Assembly: GCA_016744855.1 (NCBI GenBank)
Contig: JADGDO010000013.1
Coordinates: forward strand, 1-33,300
From: Candidatus Fermentibacteraceae bacterium
Lineage (GTDB): Bacteria; Fermentibacterota; Fermentibacteria; Fermentibacterales; JCC-6
DNA length: 33,300 nt
Reading direction: 5' to 3'
Notes under the pieces: model-generated
The model's input: the letters and a program-made list of their open reading frames with translations, nothing else
What the model was told of the DNA's origin: nothing
Databases searched by the model: none
In this document: piece by piece, positions 5,839 through 33,300 of the stretch
Layout of the letters: each line of letters opens with the position of its first letter
How positions within the stretch are numbered: the stretch's first letter is position 1
Program-made: the position numbers and the translations under genes

Positions 5839-6071
5839 TTGTTCAAAATGAATTGTCCAGCAGTCGTTCACTAACAGAATGAATTCCCATTCTTTTCGAG
5901 GAGTCTGCTCTGAAAAATCTCAACTTTTCTTAGCGGAAGTGAGACCGATTATGAGGGTCGGAGAGTTTACCTGCAGCCTTAGCAAAGTGCAGTAGACATC
6001 GATCGGTCGAGCTAATTAATTGCAGGACCATATCACAGGAGAACCGACGATTATTGTTTTGTGAAACTGAT

Positions 6072-6100
6072 TTGTTTTGCATAAAATAGATTTGTATACT
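6072..6100 (+). promoter_or_regulatory. Possible promoter for the radical SAM operon
   Basis: TATACT at 6095-6100 is a good -10 box, with TTGTTT at 6072-6077 spaced 17 nt upstream as a weak -35. It would leave a leader of about 120 nt before the gene at 6228. Other TATACT-like boxes exist nearby (near 6170), so the exact promoter is uncertain. Confidence 0.3.
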
Positions 6101-6227
6101 AAATGCGTTAGATGCTTGATAAGTGTTTATCTGTTGTTTGCGAGTTGAAAGGCAGAGTGGATTAATCAGTATACTATTAAGGTTATTTCAGCCTAAATTC
6201 ATCCTTTTTGTTGAGAGATAGTTGGGT

Positions 6228-7322
6228 ATGCGAACGCGTCGGCCAATATCGATCAATAACAGCCTTGTTCACGGAATATGCAATTACTCCTGCAGGTTGT
6301 GTGGTGTTAATAAGACGAACTACAGGGGGCCGAAAGAGTTTCAGCCGTATGATGTAACCAAAACCCTTATTAAACGGATACTTGAAGCTGCTTCTTCTGG
6401 GATATATGTACGTTACGTAGCCATTTCAGGTGATGGCGAGGCGACCCTACATCCGGAATTTGCAGACAGGTTGAGGATGTTTGGTGATATGCTCAGGGGG
6501 TGGGACGCATCCATAATGCCCCCACCGGAGATTTCAGTTGTCAGCAACGGTTCGTCGTTATACAAACCAGAGGTTATGGCACCCTTCAAGGAAAACAGTA
6601 TTTCGTTAATTATCTCTTTTCCCACAAACGATGCGGAGTCGTACGGATTGATAATGAAAGGCGACAGCGAACAGGGAGAAGCCCTGCTGTCCAGAGTCTT
6701 GCCGGGTATTGAGAAGGCGATGGCTCTTCGTGCATGCGGCCAACTTTCCAAGCTTTATTTTCACATTTCACCTCCTGAAATCGAGATTATCAGGCGTGAT
6801 TTTCCTGAAACGATCAACTGCTTAACCGAAATCGCACGCAGGAATGAACTTCATGAGATAGAGCTTGTTCTTTTCCCCGCAACAAGTAATCGTTCAGGCT
6901 TACTGCGCAATTCTGTTACGTCGGTCGAAATGTATAGAGATCTATTCAAACGTTACAACGGTCAGGCTGTCAATGGAGTGAAAATCAGAATGCAGCTAGT
7001 GGTTAAGCGTTTTTTTCATAGCAGGGTTGAGATAGTCGACCTTGTCAGGAGTTTCAGATTCCCGTGTCTCTGGAACGCCAATTTCTTTATTGCCGCAGAT
7101 GGAAGTTCTATATGCTGTAACGATCAATCAGTGCGAAATCCACAGGGCAATATTCTGAACGAATCAATTGAGACTTTGATGCAATGCAAAGAGCGGTTTT
7201 TACCGGATGAAGTATGTGCTGGATGCAACCAGTCACCACAGAATCTTAAAGGTTCATTTCAAGCGGTGTTTTTCTCCTTAATCGCAAGATTACGTTTGTT
7301 GTTCGCTAAGATTCGTAGTTGA
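6228..7322 (+). CDS. Radical SAM protein with SPASM-like Cys tail
   Basis: The protein has 364 residues from ATG 6228. The radical SAM cluster motif C18-x3-C22-x2-C25 (CNYSCRLC) sits unusually close to the N-terminus. It is followed by ISGDGEATLHPEF, a variant of the GGE motif that contacts S-adenosylmethionine. The C-terminal part (FPCLWNANFFIAADGSSICC, then GNI, then C-x2-C in VCAGC) has the spacing of a SPASM or twitch domain that binds extra Fe-S clusters, common in peptide and small-molecule maturases. A TTG 6 nt upstream is an alternative start; the ribosome binding site is weak (GAGAG at 6213-6217). It heads a set with a FeeM-like acyltransferase and a B12-binding radical SAM protein, suggesting modification of a small molecule or peptide. 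The substrate cannot be read from sequence. Confidence 0.85.
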   Translation: MRTRRPISINNSLVHGICNYSCRLCGVNKTNYRGPKEFQPYDVTKTLIKRILEAASSGIYVRYVAISGDGEATLHPEFADRLRMFGDMLRGWDASIMPPPEISVVSNGSSLYKPEVMAPFKENSISLIISFPTNDAESYGLIMKGDSEQGEALLSRVLPGIEKAMALRACGQLSKLYFHISPPEIEIIRRDFPETINCLTEIARRNELHEIELVLFPATSNRSGLLRNSVTSVEMYRDLFKRYNGQAVNGVKIRMQLVVKRFFHSRVEIVDLVRSFRFPCLWNANFFIAADGSSICCNDQSVRNPQGNILNESIETLMQCKERFLPDEVCAGCNQSPQNLKGSFQAVFFSLIARLRLLFAKIRS

Positions 7323-8212: not shown

Positions 8213-9687
8213 AAGTACTATTGATCTCTTCAAATCGGGAGAGGCATCCCTGGCCGGTTCCCCCTATCGGTGCCTGCTATGTTGCTTCAGGTCTTGAGCG
8301 GGAAGGTTACGAAGTTCAACTGCTGGACATGCTTTATGTCGATAACCCCTCATCCGAGATATCTGAAAGAGTCATAGGGTTCGCTCCGGATCTGGTGGGG
8401 GTATCAATCAGGAATATTGACAATCTTGATCAGCAGTCCTCCTTCTTTTATCTGGAAGATATAAAAAGAGATATCATCGATCCTGTCCGAAAAGCGACAT
8501 CCGTTCCACTCGTGATCGGAGGTTCAGCTGTAAGCATCATGCCCGAACGTATCATGGATTATCTAGATGTGAATTACGCCATACATGGGGAAGGCGAAAA
8601 CGCTTTTGTGGAATTCGCGCGTAACATCGAATCGGAATCGGATACCTCTCTGACCGAGGGACTTCTGTACAGGGATGATGGGAAGATCGTAAGGAATCCC
8701 GTTACTAGAATTGAGAATCTTAATGACCTTGCATTACCTCGGATATACAGGTGGCTCGATTGGAGTAGATACGGCCTGGATTATTCTCCGTACCCTGTTC
8801 AGACTAAGCGTGGCTGTGCGCTGAAATGCAGCTACTGTGTTTACAACGAAATTGAAGGCTTCAGATACAGATTAAGAGATCCAGTTAAAATCGTTGATGA
8901 GATCGAAGAAATTGTAGCGAATTGTAAGCCAAGTGTGATAGAATTCACCGATTCAACTTTCAATATTCCGCTGGATCATTCCATTGCCATCTGCAGGGAA
9001 ATTATAAGGAGGGGGATCAGAACTTCCTTCAATACCATGGGGATCAATCCGGGGGCCGTTACCGCAGAGCTTGCCGAACTGATGAGGGAAGCGAATTTTA
9101 TCGAGGTTTCCTGTACACCCGAATCAGGCTCTGAGAAAATGCTGAAAGCGCTGGGCAAGAATTTCACACTGGAAGCTGTTGAACGAGCCGCCAGTCTTTT
9201 AAGCAGCAACGGCATACCTGTTATCTGGTATTTTCTCTTCGGGGGGCCGGGTGAGGATGAGTCCACTATCAAAGAAACATTCAAGTTCATCGAAAACAAT
9301 ATCAGCAAACTGGATCTTGTCTTCATTACAAGTGGAATAAGAGTGCTTCAGGGAGCACCACTTTGCAGCTACGCTCTATCGACCGGTCAGATTACCAAAG
9401 ATTCGGATCTATTGAGGCCCATATGGCTTCAGCCGAAGGGAATCAGCAGAAAAAAAATGCTGTACATCATCAACCGGGAGATAATCACCCACCCGAACTA
9501 TATCAACCTTCAGGATAATTCGGAGGAAACCATTTTCTCTTACCTCCTTAAAAGGATTTACTCAATTTTCAGGCTGAAAGAACCTCTCTGGACTAATGTC
9601 ATGCGAAGGGATATTCTTTACAGAATAACAGGATATAATCGTTACAGATTGAGAAATCTGAAGAAGAAATACGAGGAAACTTTGTAA
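8209..9687 (+). CDS. B12-binding-domain radical SAM protein
   Basis: The 492-residue protein has the class B radical SAM layout. An N-terminal Rossmann-like cobalamin-binding domain covers about residues 1-140 (MKVLLISSN start, PPIGACYVASGLE, VIGGSAVSI, IHGEGE). The radical SAM core follows, with C203-x3-C207-x2-C210 in RGCALKCSYC, and further core motifs are EFTDSTFNI, SCTPESGSEKML and WYFLFGGPGED. The last ~100 residues form a basic helical tail. The canonical DxHxxG cobalamin-binding signature is not obvious, as in many family members. Such enzymes catalyse methyl transfers or radical rearrangements on lipids, peptides and natural products. Its ATG overlaps the stop of the FeeM-like gene by 4 nt, so it probably acts on the same product. 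A hairpin with a T-run follows 28 nt after the stop. Confidence 0.9.
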   Translation: MKVLLISSNRERHPWPVPPIGACYVASGLEREGYEVQLLDMLYVDNPSSEISERVIGFAPDLVGVSIRNIDNLDQQSSFFYLEDIKRDIIDPVRKATSVPLVIGGSAVSIMPERIMDYLDVNYAIHGEGENAFVEFARNIESESDTSLTEGLLYRDDGKIVRNPVTRIENLNDLALPRIYRWLDWSRYGLDYSPYPVQTKRGCALKCSYCVYNEIEGFRYRLRDPVKIVDEIEEIVANCKPSVIEFTDSTFNIPLDHSIAICREIIRRGIRTSFNTMGINPGAVTAELAELMREANFIEVSCTPESGSEKMLKALGKNFTLEAVERAASLLSSNGIPVIWYFLFGGPGEDESTIKETFKFIENNISKLDLVFITSGIRVLQGAPLCSYALSTGQITKDSDLLRPIWLQPKGISRKKMLYIINREIITHPNYINLQDNSEETIFSYLLKRIYSIFRLKEPLWTNVMRRDILYRITGYNRYRLRNLKKKYEETL

Positions 9688-9715
9688 GGATAGTTATCCT
9701 TCCGGCAGATACTGG

Positions 9716-9741
9716 TTGTGTTTATTAGCAAACACAATTTT
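9716..9741 (+). terminator. AT-rich terminator after the radical SAM operon
   Basis: TTGTGTTT (9716-9723) pairs perfectly with AAACACAA (9730-9737) around a 6-nt loop, then TTTT follows. The stem is weak in GC, so termination may be partial and allow some read-through into the FIST/kinase genes. Confidence 0.5.
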
Positions 9742-9798
9742 GAGTAAGGGTTTACCTGAGTTCATTTTGGAGAAATAGTAACTGTAAAGGAGGAGAAA

Positions 9799-11007
9799 AT
9801 GGCGTATATAGGTTTCAGCAGTGATACCGATTCTAAAAAAGTTGGCCGGGAAGCGGCCCTTGCGGCGAAGAGCCAGTTCAAAAGCAAGGAAACCACCACT
9901 TGGGTACTCGCCTTCTGCGGTGGGCGGCATGAAACAGACAGTGTTCTTGCGGGAATAAGGTTCGAACTGGGTGATGTTCCGATTTACGGTGGGGCAACAG
10001 CTGGAATTATTACGAATGATTCAATCGGATATACTGGCTACGAATGTGGCCTCACTGTATTCACCTCCGCTTCTCCAGTACCCGATGTAGTTGTAAATAA
10101 CGATCTTGAAGCGGGTGAATTCAACGCTGGAAAAGAGCTCGGTCTCGCCCTGGATGAGATAACTGTCGAAGGTGACACAGTGCTTATCTTCTATACGAAC
10201 CTTCGATCAATGCCACCTCCTGTACTATATACTGGCAGCACGTTGATGGACGGACTTTACGCCGGGCTTAAGAAAAGTACGGTGAATGTCATTGGTTCAG
10301 GTCTGGTTGGAGATTTTTCATTTTCACCCAGTTTTGTTTTTGATGGACGCAAGACTGTGAAACATTCTATCATAGGAATAGTTGTTCCCGGAGGTATAAC
10401 TCCGCATACAAGAATTATGCATGGCTGCAAACCTATCAGTTTGTTTAAGGAGATAACTAGAATCGATGGTCCTGTCCTTTACGAACTTGATGGCCGTCCC
10501 GCAGCGGATGTTTTTAGCGAAATGCTTGGGATAGACTCGAAAGAATTGTGCAATACAAAGAAACCTTTCATAGTTACTATAGGCAAGAAGTATGGAGAAC
10601 CATACGCCCCTTTCAATGAGCAGATGTATGTGAATCGTCTTGTTATTGATTCTGACCATGAAAAGGGCTCGGTAACGATCTTTGAAGCGGACTTTCAGCA
10701 GGGCGATATGGTACAGGTGATGTCACGAGACAATCAGTTGATGGTTGAATCGGTCGGTAGTGGTACAGCTGAGCTGATCGAAAATACTGACTTGGGGAAC
10801 TCGGAGTTCGCCCTGTATATTGACTGTGCGGGAAGAGCTTCCGGCTTTAGCGGTTCTGAGATCGAAGAGGCTGATGTCGTAAGGAAGACAATAGGTAAGA
10901 GCGTGCCATTCCTGGGTTTTTACTCGGGTGTGGAGATTGCACCCTTTCTTGGGCGTAGCCGTCCACTGGACTGGACAGGAGTTTTAACAATATTCACAAA
11001 TGGGTGA
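9799..11007 (+). CDS. FIST domain sensory protein
   Basis: The 402-residue protein fits the FIST_N/FIST_C architecture of signal-transduction sensors proposed to bind small ligands. FIST_N-type features are the early VLAFCGGRHETDSVLAGIR, PIYGGATAGI and the run to VIGSGLVGDF. The C-terminal half contains FALYIDCAGR and ends VPFLGFYSGVEIAPF then GVLTIFTNG, the expected FIST_C closing strands. There is no signal peptide, membrane segment or transmitter domain, so it is a stand-alone cytoplasmic sensor. The ATG follows AGGAGG at 9788-9793 with 5 nt spacing. The histidine kinase gene starts 3 nt after its stop, which strongly suggests that ligand binding here controls that kinase. Confidence 0.85.
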   Translation: MAYIGFSSDTDSKKVGREAALAAKSQFKSKETTTWVLAFCGGRHETDSVLAGIRFELGDVPIYGGATAGIITNDSIGYTGYECGLTVFTSASPVPDVVVNNDLEAGEFNAGKELGLALDEITVEGDTVLIFYTNLRSMPPPVLYTGSTLMDGLYAGLKKSTVNVIGSGLVGDFSFSPSFVFDGRKTVKHSIIGIVVPGGITPHTRIMHGCKPISLFKEITRIDGPVLYELDGRPAADVFSEMLGIDSKELCNTKKPFIVTIGKKYGEPYAPFNEQMYVNRLVIDSDHEKGSVTIFEADFQQGDMVQVMSRDNQLMVESVGSGTAELIENTDLGNSEFALYIDCAGRASGFSGSEIEEADVVRKTIGKSVPFLGFYSGVEIAPFLGRSRPLDWTGVLTIFTNG

Positions 11008-14319: not shown

Positions 14320-15081
14320 ATGAAGATTGGTCTGAGTATCAAGAGACTCAGGGAGAAACTTGGTATGCGACAGGAAGATATTGCGAAACAGGTTGGTCTT
14401 AGTCGAAGTACCATTGCTCAGATAGAAGGGGACAGACGCAGGGTAACTGTTGAGGAACTGGTTTTATTTGGGAGGGCAATGAATGTCTCTATTGAACACT
14501 TGGTTAACCCAGAGCTCTATCCTGACGAGGTCGTTGAACCTTCAAGTAGCGAGAATGAAGTTAGTTGCCACGAAAGAATCAGTATTCCTCAGAACAATTA
14601 TGACAAATTCAAGGAGGTGTTGCTTTACATCCTCACTAAAGTCGGGGCACAACCCAACATCGGAGAGACTGTTCTGTACAAACTTCTCTATTTTGTAGAC
14701 TTCAATTATTATGAAAAGTACGAGGAACAGCTTATCGGAGCAACCTACATTAAAAACACCTACGGACCTACTCCAACACATTTTCACAGGCTTGTCGATG
14801 AAATGATACAGGAAGGCAGCCTTGCTCGAGTATCAAATGAATACTTCAATTACCCACAGACAAAGTATCTACCGCGTATTGAACCCGATATGAAAGCATT
14901 CACGGCAAATGAGCTTGAAGTGATCAACGATGTTATAAGGAGATTGGGTAAACTGAACGCCAGTCGGATCAGCGAGTACTCTCACAAGGATATTCCATGG
15001 ATGACAGCACAGGAAGGTAAGCAAATTGAGTATGAATCTGTTTTTTACAGAACACCGGAGTATTCGGTAAGAGAGGACTGA
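14320..15081 (+). CDS. HTH-Panacea domain antitoxin (DUF4065)
   Basis: The 253-residue protein has an XRE/Cro-type helix-turn-helix (about 5-62, QEDIAKQVGLSRSTIAQIEG) and a short linker. A Panacea (DUF4065, SocA-like) domain follows from about residue 93 to 235, marked by YKLLYFVDFNYY, a GATYIKNTYGPTP segment and SEYSHKDIPW. Panacea domains are antitoxin modules found with many unrelated toxins; with a fused HTH they also repress their own operon. The ATG has a GGAGGAG site upstream. The RelE-like toxin gene starts 7 nt after the stop. The protein is expected to bind and neutralise the toxin and to bind the palindrome at 14258-14273. Confidence 0.88.
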   Translation: MKIGLSIKRLREKLGMRQEDIAKQVGLSRSTIAQIEGDRRRVTVEELVLFGRAMNVSIEHLVNPELYPDEVVEPSSSENEVSCHERISIPQNNYDKFKEVLLYILTKVGAQPNIGETVLYKLLYFVDFNYYEKYEEQLIGATYIKNTYGPTPTHFHRLVDEMIQEGSLARVSNEYFNYPQTKYLPRIEPDMKAFTANELEVINDVIRRLGKLNASRISEYSHKDIPWMTAQEGKQIEYESVFYRTPEYSVRED

Positions 15082-15088
15082 CGGGGCA

Positions 15089-15487
15089 ATGAAAATCCAA
15101 GGTATTCAACGTATAACACAGCATAAAGCCTTTGAAAAGGAGTTAAGAAGGCTTGGCAGGAAGTACAAAACAATACCTGAGGATCTGCTCACATTCATTA
15201 ACGTATCTGTCCGGGCTGTTCATCTTTTGGGGCAGAAACCCGAAGATATGGGACACTTTCCGATTCAAGGCCTTGGTATTGAAAACCACTGTTGTTTCAT
15301 CGCGAAAAGGTTTACTTGCAAAAGTTTGAAGGGGAAGGGTTCAAAGTCTGGAATCAGAGTCGTATACCGGTTTGAGAAGAATACTTTGGATCTGCTGTTA
15401 ATTGAGTTGTTTCACAAGAATGATAAGAAGTTGCCCGACCTGGATCGAGTAAAATCAATACTTGAATTGGACTATACCGATAAATGA
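15089..15487 (+). CDS. RelE/ParE-superfamily toxin paired with Panacea antitoxin
   Basis: The 132-residue basic protein has the RelE-like pattern. An N-terminal helix is rich in Lys/Arg (AFEKELRRLGRKYK). Strands follow around KSGIRVVYRFEKNTLDLLLI, then ELFHKNDKKLPDLDRVKSIL, matching the family's 'R-x-x-Y ... E-x-F/Y-x-K-x-D/K' end. RelE-type toxins cleave mRNA on the ribosome, while ParE types block gyrase; the sequence alone does not decide which. A central Cys-containing insert (NHCCFIAKRFTCK) is unusual and makes it longer than the ~95-residue canonical RelE. Its position 7 nt downstream of the antitoxin indicates a two-gene operon. Confidence 0.8.
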   Translation: MKIQGIQRITQHKAFEKELRRLGRKYKTIPEDLLTFINVSVRAVHLLGQKPEDMGHFPIQGLGIENHCCFIAKRFTCKSLKGKGSKSGIRVVYRFEKNTLDLLLIELFHKNDKKLPDLDRVKSILELDYTDK

Positions 15488-27164: not shown

Positions 27165-27215
27165 ATGCGACTTGTTAGTTCAAGTTCTATAGGAGCAGTA
27201 AACAGAGGAGGATGA
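27165..27215 (+). CDS. Possible 16-residue leader peptide
   Basis: ATG 27165 is preceded by AGGAGGGG (27151-27158) with ideal 6-nt spacing. The frame encodes MRLVSSSSIGAVNRGG and stops at 27213-27215, one nucleotide before the next ATG. Its last codons overlap the ribosome binding site of the next gene. This suggests a translated leader that couples or controls expression of the 27217 gene. It could also be chance, since it is short. No known leader or peptide family is recognised. Confidence 0.4.
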   Translation: MRLVSSSSIGAVNRGG

Positions 27216-27216
27216 A

Positions 27217-27813
27217 ATGCCAGGAGTTGATGAAAGGCTGAAAACATACGGCCTGTCTGCGGGAAGGGTTGCTCTTGAAGATGTAACTGTTCGATCAGGG
27301 GAGATTATGACCCTGAATAGCAAATCAAGAGTTGGCCATTATGAGAACCTTGAAACCAATTCGTTCAAAACCCTGAAGAGCTGGATTGGTGTTAGAAATG
27401 AAACAGTCAAGGAAAACCCACACATTATGGAAAGAGCTTCCATGAATGTCTCAGTACCGGGAAATTTGAAGCCGATGATGAGGCAACCCGCTACAGGCAG
27501 GTCTGTAGTAATGCCCAATCGGGTGTTGCTATCCATGAAGCAGCAAGTGAAACCTCTTGCTGCACAGTACCTGTATGGGAACAGTGCCACCCTTCAGAAA
27601 GCAGAAATGATTCTGGAGAGTATCTGGAAAAAAATTAATATTGGGATTTATCTGCTTCAAACAATTGAAGTTCAGGCGGGTGCTGTTCTTGATATTGGAA
27701 CCGATATTCAGGTTCTTTGGGCAAGCAGACTTAAAATTCATGACGGTGGACTTGTAAGAATTCATCTTGGGAATACGTTCAAGCTTGATGTAGATGTGCT
27801 CGAAAAAGTCTGA
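27217..27813 (+). CDS. Protein of unknown function, first large gene of the Gly-X-Y/terpenoid block
   Basis: I do not recognise the 198-residue product. It has no signal peptide. The first ~120 residues are basic and polar. The C-terminal ~70 have alternating strand motifs (IGIYLLQTIEVQAG, LDIGTDIQVLWASRLKIHDGG, VRIHLGNTFKLDV) that recall stacked-strand (beta-helix or bactofilin-like) folds. GAGGAGG lies upstream of the ATG. The next gene starts 24 nt after the stop with its own ribosome binding site, so they are likely cotranscribed. A structural partner for the Gly-X-Y protein is one guess. Confidence 0.7.
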   Translation: MPGVDERLKTYGLSAGRVALEDVTVRSGEIMTLNSKSRVGHYENLETNSFKTLKSWIGVRNETVKENPHIMERASMNVSVPGNLKPMMRQPATGRSVVMPNRVLLSMKQQVKPLAAQYLYGNSATLQKAEMILESIWKKINIGIYLLQTIEVQAGAVLDIGTDIQVLWASRLKIHDGGLVRIHLGNTFKLDVDVLEKV

Positions 27814-27836
27814 TGCTGTAAACAGGAGGTAAAAAA

Positions 27837-28499
27837 ATGGCTACTCAGTTCGAGATAATAGGCCAGCCTGGAACCGATGCAACAGATCAGGCTGCAAAAA
27901 ATGACTACTCAGATATGCCCGGTGCGAAGGATGCTGTCTGCAACTGGGATGGTGATGATGCCGCAAATTCTGGAACAAACGGTGCCAACGGAGCTGCAGG
28001 ATACCCCGGAAACACAGGTGGAGCCGCTCCTCATTGTGGAGATAGTATCTTTGAAGTTGGAGAAGTTATTGGTGATATTGAGGTAGTAGTTCACGGTGGA
28101 AAAGGTGGCAAAGGCGGCAAAGGCGGAAAAGGTCAAAATGGTCAGAACGGTCAGAATGGAGGAAACGGTAAGGGCTGCGAAGATGATAAGCCCGGAGGCA
28201 AAGGTGGCAATGGAGGTACCGGAGGAGTTGGAGGAAACGGTGGAGCCGGTTCCAACGGACCTGACCTTATTGTAAAGTACTACAGCACTACTTATCCAAG
28301 TTTAATCGGTCACTGCAATGCTGGTCAGGGTGGCAGCGGAGCGGCCGGTGGAGACGGTGGTGATTTCGGTCTTGGAGGAAAAAGAGGTGGTAACGGAGCC
28401 AGAGCTGCATCAGGCAACCTCGGACAACCGGGTTCATCCGGACAGACAGGTGCATCAGGTACAGTTTCCGGAGATGTGATATTTGTTAGAGTGACTTGA
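27837..28499 (+). CDS. Collagen-like Gly-X-Y repeat protein
   Basis: The 220-residue protein has no signal peptide. It contains several runs with Gly at every third position: GTNGANGAAGYPG (about 46-58), GGKGGKGGKGGKGQNGQNGQ (from 87), GGKGGNGGTGGVGGNGGAG (120-138), and a less regular run at about 162-208 (GGDGGDFGLGGKRGGNG). Two strand-like segments (IFEVGEVIGDIEVVV and PDLIVKYYSTTYPSLIGHC) and four cysteines (35, 67, 114, 160) separate them. Such runs can fold as polyglycine-II bundles or collagen-like helices. Lys in the first run is regular (GGK). AGGAGG precedes the ATG. A stable hairpin (28507-28535) follows the stop. The role is unknown; it could be a structural filament or a substrate of the downstream enzymes. 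Confidence 0.8.
   Translation: MATQFEIIGQPGTDATDQAAKNDYSDMPGAKDAVCNWDGDDAANSGTNGANGAAGYPGNTGGAAPHCGDSIFEVGEVIGDIEVVVHGGKGGKGGKGGKGQNGQNGQNGGNGKGCEDDKPGGKGGNGGTGGVGGNGGAGSNGPDLIVKYYSTTYPSLIGHCNAGQGGSGAAGGDGGDFGLGGKRGGNGARAASGNLGQPGSSGQTGASGTVSGDVIFVRVT
28095..28175 (+). repeat. Nine tandem 9-nt codon-triplet repeats encoding Gly-X-Y
   Basis: The first strong Gly-X-Y run (residues 87-113) is encoded by nine 9-nt units, four of GGN-GGN-AAA type followed by three Gly-Gln-Asn units and two variants. Wobble bases differ between copies, so it is not a recent perfect expansion. Confidence 0.75.
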
Positions 28500-28506
28500 T
28501 ACACTG

Positions 28507-28535
28507 GCAGGTGGAGGTGTTTTGCCTCCACCTGC
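28507..28535 (+). other. Perfect 11-bp hairpin between the Gly-X-Y gene and the next gene
   Basis: GCAGGTGGAGG (28507-28517) pairs with CCTCCACCTGC (28525-28535) around a 7-nt loop. No T-run follows, so it is more likely an RNA-stabilising or attenuating element than a full terminator. It would let the upstream part of the transcript be more abundant than the enzyme genes. Confidence 0.6.
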
Positions 28536-28579
28536 ACTTCGATTTGGAATTATGTGAACACAATTAAAAAGGAAGCACA

Positions 28580-29671
28580 ATGATGGACTTCGCAGGAACT
28601 CTTGCCGAAGAGCTTGGTTATTCGCTTTCCATAGAGCAGATTAAAAGCGTATTTCAAATTCTTCAACTGCCCCTGGATAAGGTATTATCAGAAGGAGAGT
28701 TCAGTGATTTTAACTCCAGAAAATGCTCGAAGAATGAATATGTTTCCAGAATAAATAACAACGGAGTTCCGTTGCAGATTGTTGTTTCAAATTCACAGGG
28801 AAGAAATGGACTGGGCTTTTTATCTGAAACTGGTGACATGAACTATCCGCATTCTGCAAGAGTTGCCGCTGCAGAAATCAGACTTGTAAAACTATTTGAA
28901 TCTTCCTGTGCACAGGTTGATAACGTATCAAATCGGTTCAAGAGGATTTCCTCCGTGCTACTGCCCGGAACTCCTGATGGAATAGACAATCTAAAGAGAG
29001 GTAGTTTCTGGTTTTCCCTCAGGTTCCTGCACTCTGGCAAATTCTACTGTTCTGTTTACTTTAATGGTAAATGGGGTAATGCATCCCAGCGCAATTCCAG
29101 ACCAGTCAAGCTGTTGGCTGAATACTCCTGTTTTGAATCAATTCTGCGTCTTAAATCAATCCAGAGTTTTCTAGAAGGTTTTTCCAGACCGATTGGGCAA
29201 GCAGTTAGCATTGGGACCACAAGAAACGGAGTCTGCAAGTTTTATTACAGGGCATCAGAGCCATCTACTGAGAATATTGAAGAGCTGTATTCCAGGTTGG
29301 GTATGAAAAACTGCTATAAGGATTTCATAACTTTTTCCAGAGCGGTGCTTCCACCGTTTCCTGTATTTCCAGAGCAGTCTATTGTCTTTTCGATAGAGTT
29401 CAATCTGGATGAAGACAAGTTCACTGGAATAAAAATTGATGCGTGCTCTCATTGTCTTCCACATGGAGACAGAGCATACGCTGAGCGGTGGTCAGAACTG
29501 TTGAACTGCTACAATATGTCACCAAGTGATTACATCAGAGCACTGGAAGTCTTGTCTGGCTCCGAACTCAACACAGACACAGTGAACCATGCCTTCTTGG
29601 GGGTAGGGCATGAAGTGAACGGATCGTTAAGGTTTAACGCTTATCTCAGACCCGGTGAAGTGATATTGTGA
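28580..29671 (+). CDS. Possible ABBA-fold (aromatic-type) prenyltransferase
   Basis: I do not recognise the family by direct motif, but the 363-residue layout is suggestive. There are five pairs of antiparallel strands separated by helices: about 63-70/77-82, 142-150/153-161 (FWFSLRFLHSGKFYCSVYF), 207-213/217-224 (VSIGTTRNGVCKFYYRAS), 267-275/280-288 (VFSIEFNLDEDKFTGIKI) and 336-343/348-356 (AFLGVGHEVNGSLRFNAYLR). Five beta-beta units with intervening helices is the ABBA prenyltransferase barrel (DMATS/NphB groups), and 300-400 residues is the right length. These enzymes move a prenyl group onto aromatic or peptide acceptors. AAAGGA precedes the ATG. The next gene overlaps by 4 nt. The assignment is an inference from strand pattern. 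Confidence 0.5.
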   Translation: MMDFAGTLAEELGYSLSIEQIKSVFQILQLPLDKVLSEGEFSDFNSRKCSKNEYVSRINNNGVPLQIVVSNSQGRNGLGFLSETGDMNYPHSARVAAAEIRLVKLFESSCAQVDNVSNRFKRISSVLLPGTPDGIDNLKRGSFWFSLRFLHSGKFYCSVYFNGKWGNASQRNSRPVKLLAEYSCFESILRLKSIQSFLEGFSRPIGQAVSIGTTRNGVCKFYYRASEPSTENIEELYSRLGMKNCYKDFITFSRAVLPPFPVFPEQSIVFSIEFNLDEDKFTGIKIDACSHCLPHGDRAYAERWSELLNCYNMSPSDYIRALEVLSGSELNTDTVNHAFLGVGHEVNGSLRFNAYLRPGEVIL

Positions 29672-30615
29672 AAAAGGCAAACACAGCAGCTCCAGCGAAA
29701 AAGCGAACAATAGAGGATAGAATTTCTGCCGGAATAAAATACATTTTTGATCTCCAGAATGAAGACGGTCACTGGGAAGACTTTCTTCTTCCTCCGGGCA
29801 GGTCGGACATGTGGGTAACAGCATACATTGGGCTTCAGATGAAAAACGCAACTCAACGGATGAAAGCTTTTTGCTACTTACCGCAATTGGAACGAGCTGC
29901 CAAATGGCTTGAGAAAACACGATCTGCTGGAGGAGGTTGGGGTTACAATCTCTCATGCCCCGCAGATGCAGATAGCACTTCATTTGCTATTCTCTTCTTA
30001 AGAGCCATGAAGAGGAACATACCAGGAGAATGTTCAGCTAGACTCAGAAGGTTTATCGGTCAGGATGGAGGTGTGAGTACATACATTCTTAACGATCCCT
30101 CTGACTACTGGGGGGCTTCTCATCCGGATGTTACCCCTGTTGCAGGGATGGCACTGTTACCTGATGTTAAATGCTGTAAATCTCTACTGGATAGAATGAA
30201 AAGATATGTTGTTGCAAATCAGAATGAAAATGGCATGTGGAATTCCTACTGGTGGAACACACCTCTGTACAGTACTTGTCAGAATCTGCTTTTTAGCCAT
30301 GAAACTAATGCTCCAGTAAAACTCAGCTTTATACTGAGTACACTCTCTTCCTTAACAATCAATTCTGCTTTTGAAATTGCTCTATTGGTGAACTGCCGCA
30401 GATTGCTCTATATCGCTTCTGATGAAGCTGCCGAAACCCTTGCCGAGATGCAGCTGTCCGACGGAAGCTGGAAGTCTGTTCCAATGCTTAGGGTAACCTA
30501 TTCATCGATGGCGAAGCCATGGCTTCTTCAGGAATCCGGAAAACTCTACAGGGATGATCATCACCTTTTCACCACAGCAACTGTTATCAATTCTCTCGCA
30601 AGTTCTCTTAATTGA
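29668..30615 (+). CDS. Terpene-cyclase/prenyltransferase-like alpha/alpha toroid protein
   Basis: The 315-residue protein has repeated helix pairs with QW-like turns: LQNEDGHWEDF, TRSAGGGWGYN, QNENGMWNSYWWNTP and MQLSDGSWKSVP. These are found in squalene-hopene cyclases and class II terpene cyclases. The stretch CPADADSTSFAILFL at about 97-111 holds D100-A-D102-S103-T, very close to the DxDD acid motif. The first two Asp are kept (the second is the proton donor in known cyclases) and the third is replaced by Ser. It is about half the length of squalene-hopene cyclase, so it contains one toroid domain. The GTG start overlaps the stop of the preceding gene (GTGA), so the two are translationally coupled. 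A cyclase, or a non-catalytic partner of the prenyltransferase-like protein, are both possible. Confidence 0.7.
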   Translation: MKKANTAAPAKKRTIEDRISAGIKYIFDLQNEDGHWEDFLLPPGRSDMWVTAYIGLQMKNATQRMKAFCYLPQLERAAKWLEKTRSAGGGWGYNLSCPADADSTSFAILFLRAMKRNIPGECSARLRRFIGQDGGVSTYILNDPSDYWGASHPDVTPVAGMALLPDVKCCKSLLDRMKRYVVANQNENGMWNSYWWNTPLYSTCQNLLFSHETNAPVKLSFILSTLSSLTINSAFEIALLVNCRRLLYIASDEAAETLAEMQLSDGSWKSVPMLRVTYSSMAKPWLLQESGKLYRDDHHLFTTATVINSLASSLN

Positions 30616-30650: not shown

Positions 30651-31220
30651 CTACCGGGAACCGGCTCCATTGAGTATCAGATCCAGAAGGTCCTCATCTG
30701 AAACTGTTTGCTTTTTTGTCATGAAGGGTTTTCTTGCTCTGAAAACACCCATGATAAAGAATGAGAGAGTTCGGGTATCGATATCACTACGGAACGTACC
30801 TTCCTTCACGCCGAGTTTTACCAGGGAATCAATCAATGATACCATGACAGATTCAATCTGGGTAAAACCATCAAATGCCTCAGGTTCTGTCCAAGGGGGA
30901 GACTCCTGAAGAAAAACAATGATAGACATCAGCATGGGATGATGCATAATAAAACTGATGTAGGTATTGCCCAACTCAACAAGTCTGTTAAGGCTGTTAC
31001 CGCTTGTAGACAATCCAGCATCCATCATCTCTCCTCTAAGATCTTCAAGAAGATTCAGAGCCAGCTTGCCCAGCAGATCATCCTTGCTGGAAAAATGCTC
31101 GTAGATGGTACCTTTACCTACCTTTGCGGTAGATGCCACCATATCCAGAGTGATTTTGTGCGGTAGCTTTTTTGCGCAGAGTTCTTCTGTAGCTTCAAGA
31201 ATCCGGTTTCTAGTAGGCAT
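30651..31220 (-). CDS. TetR/AcrR-family transcriptional regulator
   Basis: The 189-residue protein has the TetR DNA-binding domain at the N-terminus (RILEATEELCAKK, then the HTH AKVGKGTIYEHFSSKDDLL) and a divergent helical ligand-binding half. The ATG has AAGGAAG upstream. It is divergent from the TolC/adaptor genes, and a palindrome with a promoter sits just upstream (31235-31280). Repression of itself and of the efflux genes is the usual arrangement. Confidence 0.92.
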   Translation of the reverse strand: MPTRNRILEATEELCAKKLPHKITLDMVASTAKVGKGTIYEHFSSKDDLLGKLALNLLEDLRGEMMDAGLSTSGNSLNRLVELGNTYISFIMHHPMLMSIIVFLQESPPWTEPEAFDGFTQIESVMVSLIDSLVKLGVKEGTFRSDIDTRTLSFFIMGVFRARKPFMTKKQTVSDEDLLDLILNGAGSR

Positions 31221-31234
31221 TTTTCTTCCTTAGT

Positions 31235-31280
31235 ACTGATTAGTCAGTCAGAAATATATACCTATAAGTCAATATGTCAA
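31235..31280 (-). promoter_or_regulatory. TetR-gene promoter with palindromic operator
   Basis: On the minus strand TTGACA (31280-31275) is followed after 16 nt by TATATT (31258-31253). Just downstream lies ACTGA-TTAG-TCAGT (31235-31248), a perfect 5-bp-arm palindrome covering the expected transcription start. It is a good candidate for autorepression by the TetR protein. Confidence 0.6.
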
Positions 31281-31291
31281 TGAGATACGCG

Positions 31292-31321
31292 CTGTAACAT
31301 ACTGTAACGTACTGAAATATA
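31292..31321 (+). repeat. Three 10-bp direct repeats upstream of the TolC-like gene
   Basis: The decamers CTGTAACATA (31292-31301), CTGTAACGTA (31302-31311) and CTGAAATATA (31312-31321) follow each other without gap. A 10-bp period places equivalent bases on one face of the helix, as in activator or repressor arrays. They may control the efflux operon that starts at 31373. Confidence 0.55.
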
Positions 31322-31372
31322 AATGCAACAATACATCTTCATCTTATCTCCAGATCAACAAAGGAGGTAAGA

Positions 31373-32668
31373 ATGTTTAAATCAATAGCTGCGGTTCTGA
31401 TGCTCACGGTGAGTTTCTACACAGCAGAGGGTTCTGTACTAACGCTTGAGGAGTCTGTTTCTGCTGCGTGCTCTAATAGAGCCGAAGTGAGTCAAGCTGA
31501 GTTGTCCATAAGATCAGCTGAAGCTGCTCATCTGGGTTCAACTCTTTGGTTTACGCCGACTGTATCCGCTGATGCAGGACTGTCTGCAATGGAAACAGAG
31601 ATGCCTGAAAGCGAGATGTACAGCTCAAGCATTAATATTAATGCGTCTATGAATCTGTTCAATCTTCAGAGCATTGGAAGAAGAAGAACAGCCTCAGTTG
31701 CTGTTAGCATCGCAGAGGAAGCTAGCAGAGCAACCAGAGCCGTTGTGATTTTCGATACTGCATCTAGTTGGTACTCTGTGCTTCAGGCTCAGGCGGCTTT
31801 GGAACTCGCAGATTTGAATCTGAGCACACAGGAGGAGATGTTTCGCCTTGTGGGAGAGAAATACAACCTAGGAATGGTAAGCAGATATGAATACCTTTCT
31901 GGGCATGTTTCACTAGAAAACACCCGCCCCGTGCAGATAGCTGCATCAGCATCACTTGAGAATGCACTGGGTAGCTTATCTGTTGCAATCGGACAAAGTT
32001 ACAATGAGATAGAAAGTGTTGAAGGATCTCTTGATGAAGAGTTGCAGGTTACCATCCCAGAATCACCGGAAGATCTTGCAGAGATTGCTATTGCTAAATC
32101 CTCAGAGGTTATTTTGGCTAGACTCAGCCTTGAATCTGCTTCGACTCAGACTTTTACAGCACATGCTGGATATGCACCATCACTACGGCTTAATGGAACC
32201 ATGGGATGGTCAAACGGTGATGAGGATCTGTTCGAACTTGGAAGCAATGACATGTCTAGAACAAGCTCAGTTGGTGTTTCACTTCATGTGCCCATCTTCA
32301 GCTCTTTTGGGACAGAAACTGCAGTGAAAACTGCCAGACTTTCAGAGCTTTCTGCCCAGTATGAGTTAAGCAGCGTAGAAAACGACACTAGGCAAAGTGC
32401 TCTTGAGGCGTGGAACAATATTCTCAGCTCTCAACAGCGGCTGGTCGGAGCAAACTCCCTTGTTCTTGAGGCTCAAGAGGCCCTGGAAATTGCCCAGATC
32501 ACTTATGAAGCCGGTTCAATTACAAGGCTGGACCTCGAACAGTCCATCCTGGGATTCGTAACTGCTAGAGAACACCGGTCAGAAGCGCAACTAGCGATGA
32601 GAATGGCTGAGTTAAACATAGCGATGCTTACCGGGGAAATTCATGAATTATGGGAGGTAGAAGAATGA
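31373..32668 (+). CDS. TolC-family outer-membrane efflux protein
   Basis: The 431-residue protein has a signal peptide (MFKSIAAVLMLTVSFYTAEG) and the duplicated TolC pattern: an N-terminal LTLEESVSAACSNRAEVSQA, a first long coiled-coil helix set, a strand/loop region, then a second set ending ALEIAQITYEAGSITRLDLE. The last is the family's conserved C-terminal helix motif. It would form the outer-membrane channel and periplasmic tunnel for an export pump. AAAGGAGG precedes the ATG. The adaptor gene overlaps its stop by 4 nt. Confidence 0.92.
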   Translation: MFKSIAAVLMLTVSFYTAEGSVLTLEESVSAACSNRAEVSQAELSIRSAEAAHLGSTLWFTPTVSADAGLSAMETEMPESEMYSSSININASMNLFNLQSIGRRRTASVAVSIAEEASRATRAVVIFDTASSWYSVLQAQAALELADLNLSTQEEMFRLVGEKYNLGMVSRYEYLSGHVSLENTRPVQIAASASLENALGSLSVAIGQSYNEIESVEGSLDEELQVTIPESPEDLAEIAIAKSSEVILARLSLESASTQTFTAHAGYAPSLRLNGTMGWSNGDEDLFELGSNDMSRTSSVGVSLHVPIFSSFGTETAVKTARLSELSAQYELSSVENDTRQSALEAWNNILSSQQRLVGANSLVLEAQEALEIAQITYEAGSITRLDLEQSILGFVTAREHRSEAQLAMRMAELNIAMLTGEIHELWEVEE

Positions 32669-33300
32669 GAAAGATATTATTCATCGCAACGGCTATTCTA
32701 CTGGTAACTGCATGCGGTATGCCTTCGGGCGGCAGGGAAGCTACTCCTGTTACAGTGGAGACAATGAATGTGCAGGAATCTGATGTGTCGAGCTGGGCGT
32801 ATTCCTACAGCAGGCTAGAAGGAGTAAATCAAGCAGATATCTATGGTTACAGCGGTACCGTGGAAAGCATACTTGTAGTATCAGGTGATTCTGTCGAGGC
32901 GGGAGAACTTCTGATGGTACTCAGCACCGACAGCGAAAGCACCTCAAACGCAAACGCTGCAGCAGCAATTGTTAACTCCGCAGAGGCTGCGCTTGCACAG
33001 TCGAACGATAATTTGGAAAGAGTGACTACTCTGCATGAAGCAGGAGGAATGAGCGATCAAGAACTGCTGAATGCTCAGCTTTCAGCTGAGATTGCAAGGG
33101 GTTCTCTTAACTCTGCACAGGCCTCCTTCTCCGGGACAGCTTCCAGAACAGAAAACTCTCGTGTCACCGCTCCTTTCAGTGGGGTAGTCGGGAGGATCAA
33201 CATTACCATTGGAGATCCTGTTTCTTCAGTGCAGCCCCTACTGACGGTTGCTTCACCTGAACTCCTAAGGGCTGAGGTTCTTCTACCGGAAGATGCTCTG
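32665..33300 (+). CDS. RND-type efflux periplasmic adaptor, partial
   Basis: The window shows the first 212 codons of a lipoprotein adaptor (signal ending LVTAC, Cys 17). GYSGTVESILVVSGDSVEAG is the typical lipoyl-like half-motif. A coiled-coil hairpin follows, and then RVTAPFSGVVGRINITIGDP, the second lipoyl half. It is the membrane-fusion partner linking the TolC-like channel to an inner-membrane pump that presumably lies beyond the window edge. GGAGG lies 7 nt before the ATG, which overlaps the tolC-like stop by 4 nt. The gene is cut by the end of the window, not broken. Confidence 0.9.
   Translation, partial: MRKILFIATAILLVTACGMPSGGREATPVTVETMNVQESDVSSWAYSYSRLEGVNQADIYGYSGTVESILVVSGDSVEAGELLMVLSTDSESTSNANAAAAIVNSAEAALAQSNDNLERVTTLHEAGGMSDQELLNAQLSAEIARGSLNSAQASFSGTASRTENSRVTAPFSGVVGRINITIGDPVSSVQPLLTVASPELLRAEVLLPEDAL

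Follow-up and report, generated by a model that had tools for sequence, protein, structure and literature searches.

The closest described counterpart of the enzyme pair considered here is NctPC (Hubrich et al. 2024), which holds an ABBA fold and an MstE-like domain in one enzyme and places a C20 (geranylgeranyl) chain on a peptide tryptophan and then cyclises that chain (PMC13290415). MstE, or merosterolic acid synthase (PDB 6sbb), is a monodomain class II cyclase, which protonates the terminal double bond of a prenylated aromatic acid and so cyclises it (PMC9401909). The ABBA fold is defined by five ββαα repeats (PMC3227686), and the key residues of TleC are the general-base Glu106, Arg119, and Lys187 (PMC4786772).

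The kind of enzyme pair found in the window (the whole 33,300-nucleotide stretch of DNA that was analysed) is already known from the one recent report on NctPC (PMC13290415). What is new in detail is that the pair is split and has Gly-rich neighbours, and that its distribution is wide but rare. Like NctPC, the window pairs a predicted ABBA-fold prenyltransferase with an MstE-like monodomain cyclase, and by analogy the logic would be transfer followed by cyclisation. Unlike NctPC, which is one polypeptide and is compared here by its description, the window pair is encoded by two separate ORFs, lacks a recognisable precursor peptide, and has Gly-rich and orphan genes upstream. A scan for small ORFs with Shine-Dalgarno sequences returned only larger genes and short, chance-like ORFs; the 198-aa and Gly-rich proteins both contain Trp. 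ChrPC-type maturases likewise have a cyclase domain and two-step logic, but their prenyltransferase is trans-IDS-like, a fold different from that predicted here.

Four ORFs lie on the same strand (+) and span 27217-30615, as the preliminary description had it. The stop codon of the ABBA gene (TGA, 29669-29671) lies across the GTG start of the cyclase gene at 29668, with shared letters GTGA, so the 4-nucleotide overlap that it reported is real. Shine-Dalgarno-like sequences precede the first three of these ORFs. A 16-codon ORF, whose ATG is at 27165, where the preliminary description began its block, and which ends 1 nucleotide before the ATG at 27217, is possibly a leader or a chance occurrence. 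The hairpin that lies after the Gly-rich gene and ahead of the enzyme genes has no clear U-tract; attenuator, partial terminator, and mRNA-processing site are candidate roles. It fits either separate units or an arrangement in which substrate is made at a high level and enzyme at a low one, as is seen in peptide clusters. The cassette contains no prenyl diphosphate synthase gene. Downstream of it, at 30651-33300, is an efflux operon that has its own TetR regulator. Elsewhere in the window, a RelE-like protein comes after an HTH protein whose C-terminal part is Panacea-like (14320-15487); these we take to be a toxin-antitoxin-like pair.

Table 1. Features of the cassette and of related loci
Feature	Location	Strand	Basis or source
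16-codon ORF, MRLVSSSSIGAVNRGG	Window 27165..27215	+	Strong Shine-Dalgarno-like sequence; read from sequence
198-aa orphan protein gene	Window 27217..27813	+	ORF; no relatives found
220-aa Gly-rich (GGX/GXY) protein gene	Window 27837..28499	+	ORF, composition
Strong hairpin, 12-13 bp stem	Window 28507..28535	+	Fold z-score -4.05; terminator-like scan
ABBA (PT-barrel) prenyltransferase-like protein gene, 363 aa	Window 28580..29671	+	Predicted structure and alignment
MstE-like monodomain class II terpene cyclase gene, 315 aa, GTG start	Window 29668..30615	+	Pfam, PDB match, motif
Single-ORF cyclase-ABBA fusion, 680 aa	L010 5065-7107		Clostridia MAG
Single-ORF cyclase-ABBA fusion, 741 aa	L011 3500-5725		Armatimonadetes MAG
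Single-ORF cyclase-ABBA fusion, 698 aa	L022 13511-15607		Paracoccus SMMA_5_TC
Split pair in the window's order	L012 4957-5982 then 5983-7083		Cyanobacterium
A/B-type large orphan proteins	L010:547-5065; L011:123-3507; L022:1805-13514; L012:769-4957; L023:8974-16582		

The terpene-cyclase-like protein proposed for the last ORF is borne out by its Pfam match (SQHop_cyclase_C, 1e-7), by its best PDB matches, which are the solved monodomain cyclases 8paj (1.4e-23), 8pak, and MstE (6e-17), and by its acid motif. The 315-aa protein is a single toroid domain with a D-x-D-[DST] motif, D100-A-D102-S-T (PADADST in the window), which aligns with GDADTT of MstE, and D-x-D-S-T is kept in the examined ABBA-linked relatives, both the fused ones and the cyanobacterial split one. 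From these sequence features the product belongs to the MstE-like monodomain class II terpene cyclases, and cyclisation itself is predicted. It shares D-x-D-[ST]-T with MstE; unlike MstE, whose substrate is a small prenylated aromatic acid, it is partnered with an ABBA protein. A cyclase tree places the window sequence next to the fused group (support 63/53) and does not resolve the ABBA-linked cyclases as one clade.

The product of the ABBA gene has no match in sequence searches of Pfam, NCBIfam, or the PDB, including the curated families Trp_DMAT and Orf2; weak Trp_DMAT matches occur in relatives only (L010, E 0.2; L012, E 0.05). An AlphaFold2 model built from three sequences, with the L010 and L011 relatives as rows of the alignment, is of low confidence (pLDDT 44), yet it has ten strands in five ββαα repeats. 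Foldseek searches with this model gave a best E of 1.9e-5, and the top 50 matches were all ABBA prenyltransferases; in VIA-align the best Z was 10.3, and all 50 rows listed were prenyltransferases of the same families. A model of the L011 ABBA domain, made from an alignment with L010 only and with the window sequence left out, is also of low confidence (pLDDT 47). It repeats the topology of the window model and matches more strongly, with a best E of 1.4e-8 and a TM of about 0.6 to bacterial DMATS. By sequence alone, the window protein and the fused domains are not significantly similar (hhalign P 0.11). The low-confidence model and the L011 relative together predict the ten-stranded barrel of five repeats that marks the ABBA superfamily, which is the fold that had been suggested for this protein.

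In alignments at 20-24% identity, Q66 and G79 of the window protein replace the catalytic Glu and diphosphate-binding Arg of the fused relatives, which retain both residues in GGxPxEFS...PALRY. The Lys/Tyr positions of three strands are kept (K154/Y156, K220/Y222, and Y355). Because Gln stands where the relatives have the catalytic Glu, activity of the window protein is uncertain. The protein resembles the indole prenyltransferases (DMATS1, 5-/6-DMATS, MpnD, and CymD) in its predicted ten-stranded barrel and several donor-site Lys/Tyr residues, but differs from them in its want of a sequence-family match, in the Glu-to-Gln and Arg-to-Gly changes, and in its position beside a cyclase.

The pair recurs in other genomes. 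A tblastn search with the cyclase led to a Deinococcus QL22 plasmid, in which the cyclase ORF extends through an ABBA-like tail and on into the gene that follows; this cyclase-ABBA fusion (L008:7980-10145) is broken by in-frame TGA and TAG codons. The fusion is annotated as two genes, and a remnant of gene B lies upstream. Scanning genomes with an alignment of cyclases turned up the single-ORF fusions of the Clostridia and Armatimonadetes MAGs, and the Paracoccus SMMA_5_TC fusion was reached by tracing a conserved upstream gene. In the cyanobacterium, the first gene of the split pair encodes a 341-aa protein with an NGYPVEFTF...SIRY motif, and the cyclase gene is directly next. The fused relatives run cyclase-then-ABBA, whereas the window and the cyanobacterium run ABBA-then-cyclase. 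Because relatives carry both domains in a single ORF, the pairing is real. The idea of a cassette was to fail if homologues of the toroid protein never stood beside an ABBA protein; relatives in other phyla are fused to or beside ABBA domains. As for the question of whether all four genes co-occur, the enzyme pair does so across phyla, but the upstream two genes were not seen with it.

The distribution is narrow within the window's own phylum. Among its 42 genomes the cassette is unique, save for a cyclase remnant in a sister species (40 residues, 62% identical, with a stop, at a different site), and a second sister species carries the TetR-efflux operon of the flank but no cassette. These observations indicate a rare, patchy, accessory cassette. 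The efflux operon was rejected as part of it, since its presence in a species that has no cassette means that it is not specific to the cassette. Scans of genome contigs and of plasmids with the window ABBA protein alone gave no match, and a profile of the fusion ABBA domains revealed no more convincing copies in 43 genomes of the L011 phylum or 348 of the L010 phylum. Viral contigs, PADLOC, and PHROGs also gave no match. Weak matches in L002, L003, L021, and L025 were dismissed as chance, being short and in some cases containing internal stops.

Large orphan beta-rich repeat proteins of about 620-900 aa, which fall into two families, A and B, and lack Pfam matches, are found directly upstream of the ABBA/cyclase genes at related loci, often as several paralogues in a row. 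The fusion is preceded by two such proteins, A and B, in L010, L011, and L022, and the cyanobacterial split pair by two A-type proteins; no A-type protein was found in the window's genome. A stretch with no recognised ABBA or cyclase gene encodes A-type proteins with likely signal peptides, judged by eye (L039:3239-5098 and 8764-10635), which suggests that the A family can be exported. On a Paracoccus plasmid (L026:7013-32865), the operon of A, B, and fusion genes includes a PLD-like protein, a tyrosinase, and a trypsin-like protease. Next to it are genes for a STAND-type ATPase and for two EAD1 proteins, of which one carries a trypsin domain, an arrangement as in described biological conflict systems. 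In L036:4196-6277 and L016:5074-7014, cyclase domains are fused to a polyprenyl-synthase-like domain, and M50 peptidase genes follow directly in L016 and past an ABC transporter in L036. These fusions are likely examples of proteins resembling ChrPC-type peptide maturases. Upstream of the cyclase in L036 lies an HTH protein similar to that of the window.

The Gly-rich protein was first described as a collagen-like Gly-X-Y protein. Its glycine period is beyond chance for its composition: Gly makes up 65 of its 220 residues and recurs at every third position for up to 9 triplets in a row, a run length that 3 of 5000 shuffles reached. However, the runs are mostly GGX and broken by hydrophobic stretches, and only 8 of the 220 residues are Pro, so "collagen-like" refers to a period and not to a demonstrated triple helix. 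The protein lacks the long unbroken Gly-X-Y tract and triple-helix-forming composition of collagen-like proteins, its NCBIfam match to SclB has an E of only 0.053, and its make-up appears to fit polyglycine-type packing better. It also contains 1 Trp, 5 Tyr, and 4 Cys. The Lys/Asn/Gln richness attributed to it is limited to roughly residues 87-113. The 198-aa protein has no Cys, 3 Trp, and, by eye, a strand-rich C-terminus.

The membership of the Gly-X-Y protein in the enzyme module, which the preliminary description assumed, is not supported. Neither it nor the 198-aa protein has detectable relatives in the other genomes of the 42-genome phylum set, and neither was seen with the enzyme pair at the other loci, which carry the unrelated large beta-rich proteins instead. 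The hairpin, which parts the two gene pairs, also counts against it. The Gly-rich protein or the 198-aa protein is nevertheless a candidate acceptor or companion, and decoration of the Gly-rich protein is possible. The other proposal of the preliminary description, a terpenoid pathway with the first two proteins as scaffold, found no support. The proposed prenylation/cyclisation cassette with a collagen-like protein thus keeps its enzymatic half, which is supported by the NctPC precedent together with the fold and linkage results.

On balance, the two genes at 28580-30615 seem to form a two-step terpenylation module, in which prenyl transfer is followed by ring closure. The ABBA-type prenyltransferase would move a prenyl chain, probably C15-C20, onto an aromatic acceptor, and the MstE-like cyclase would use its DxDST acid to protonate the attached chain at its end and would fold it into rings. 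Because both domains form one polypeptide in other bacteria, the two most likely work one after the other on a single substrate. Catalysis, donor length, step order, and acceptor are extrapolated for the window pair from its relatives and from described enzymes. By analogy with NctPC the acceptor is probably a peptide or protein made on the ribosome, and either the Gly-rich or the 198-aa product may fill this role. It is also conceivable, although unlikely, that the pair belongs to a small-molecule meroterpenoid pathway akin to merosterolic acid synthesis, with the ABBA protein prenylating a free phenol, indole, or amino acid, the cyclase closing the rings, and the Gly-rich and 198-aa genes as unrelated neighbours. 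MstE itself takes a prenylated small aromatic acid (PMC9401909), and most ABBA enzymes use small aromatics (PMC3227686); the hairpin between the gene pairs and the adjacent TetR-regulated efflux operon would also fit. However, no gene for aromatic-precursor synthesis or tailoring was recognised nearby, the efflux operon occurs in a sister species without the cassette, and elsewhere the pair lies directly downstream of large orphan proteins and not of biosynthetic genes.

A further reading, quite improbable, is that the ABBA protein of the window no longer catalyses anything and partners the cyclase in binding or assembly, or else that the cassette is in decay. The Gln and Gly substitutions would agree with this, as would the broken Deinococcus copy and the interrupted cyclase fragment that is all a sister species has. 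PatF is an ABBA protein for which no activity was detected, yet its pathway cannot do without it (PMC3668578). However, both window genes are full-length and free of stops, and the Lys/Tyr positions and the DxDST motif are kept. Moreover, NphB-type ABBA enzymes are not known to rely on the Glu that is replaced.

Modification of ribosomal peptides with cyclised terpenes has been described only recently. The locus and its relatives reveal the ABBA-plus-cyclase pairing in several phyla, both split and as cyclase-then-ABBA fusions, and outside recognisable peptide clusters. A bolder form of the terpenylation module, which we consider rather doubtful, is that the pair attaches the cyclised terpene to a large gene-encoded protein, namely the Gly-rich or 198-aa protein here and the A/B beta-rich proteins elsewhere. 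If true, a full-sized bacterial structural protein, and not a short peptide, would be lipidated with a polycyclic terpene. With large orphan proteins in the operon context, it becomes possible to test whether bacteria terpenylate whole proteins.
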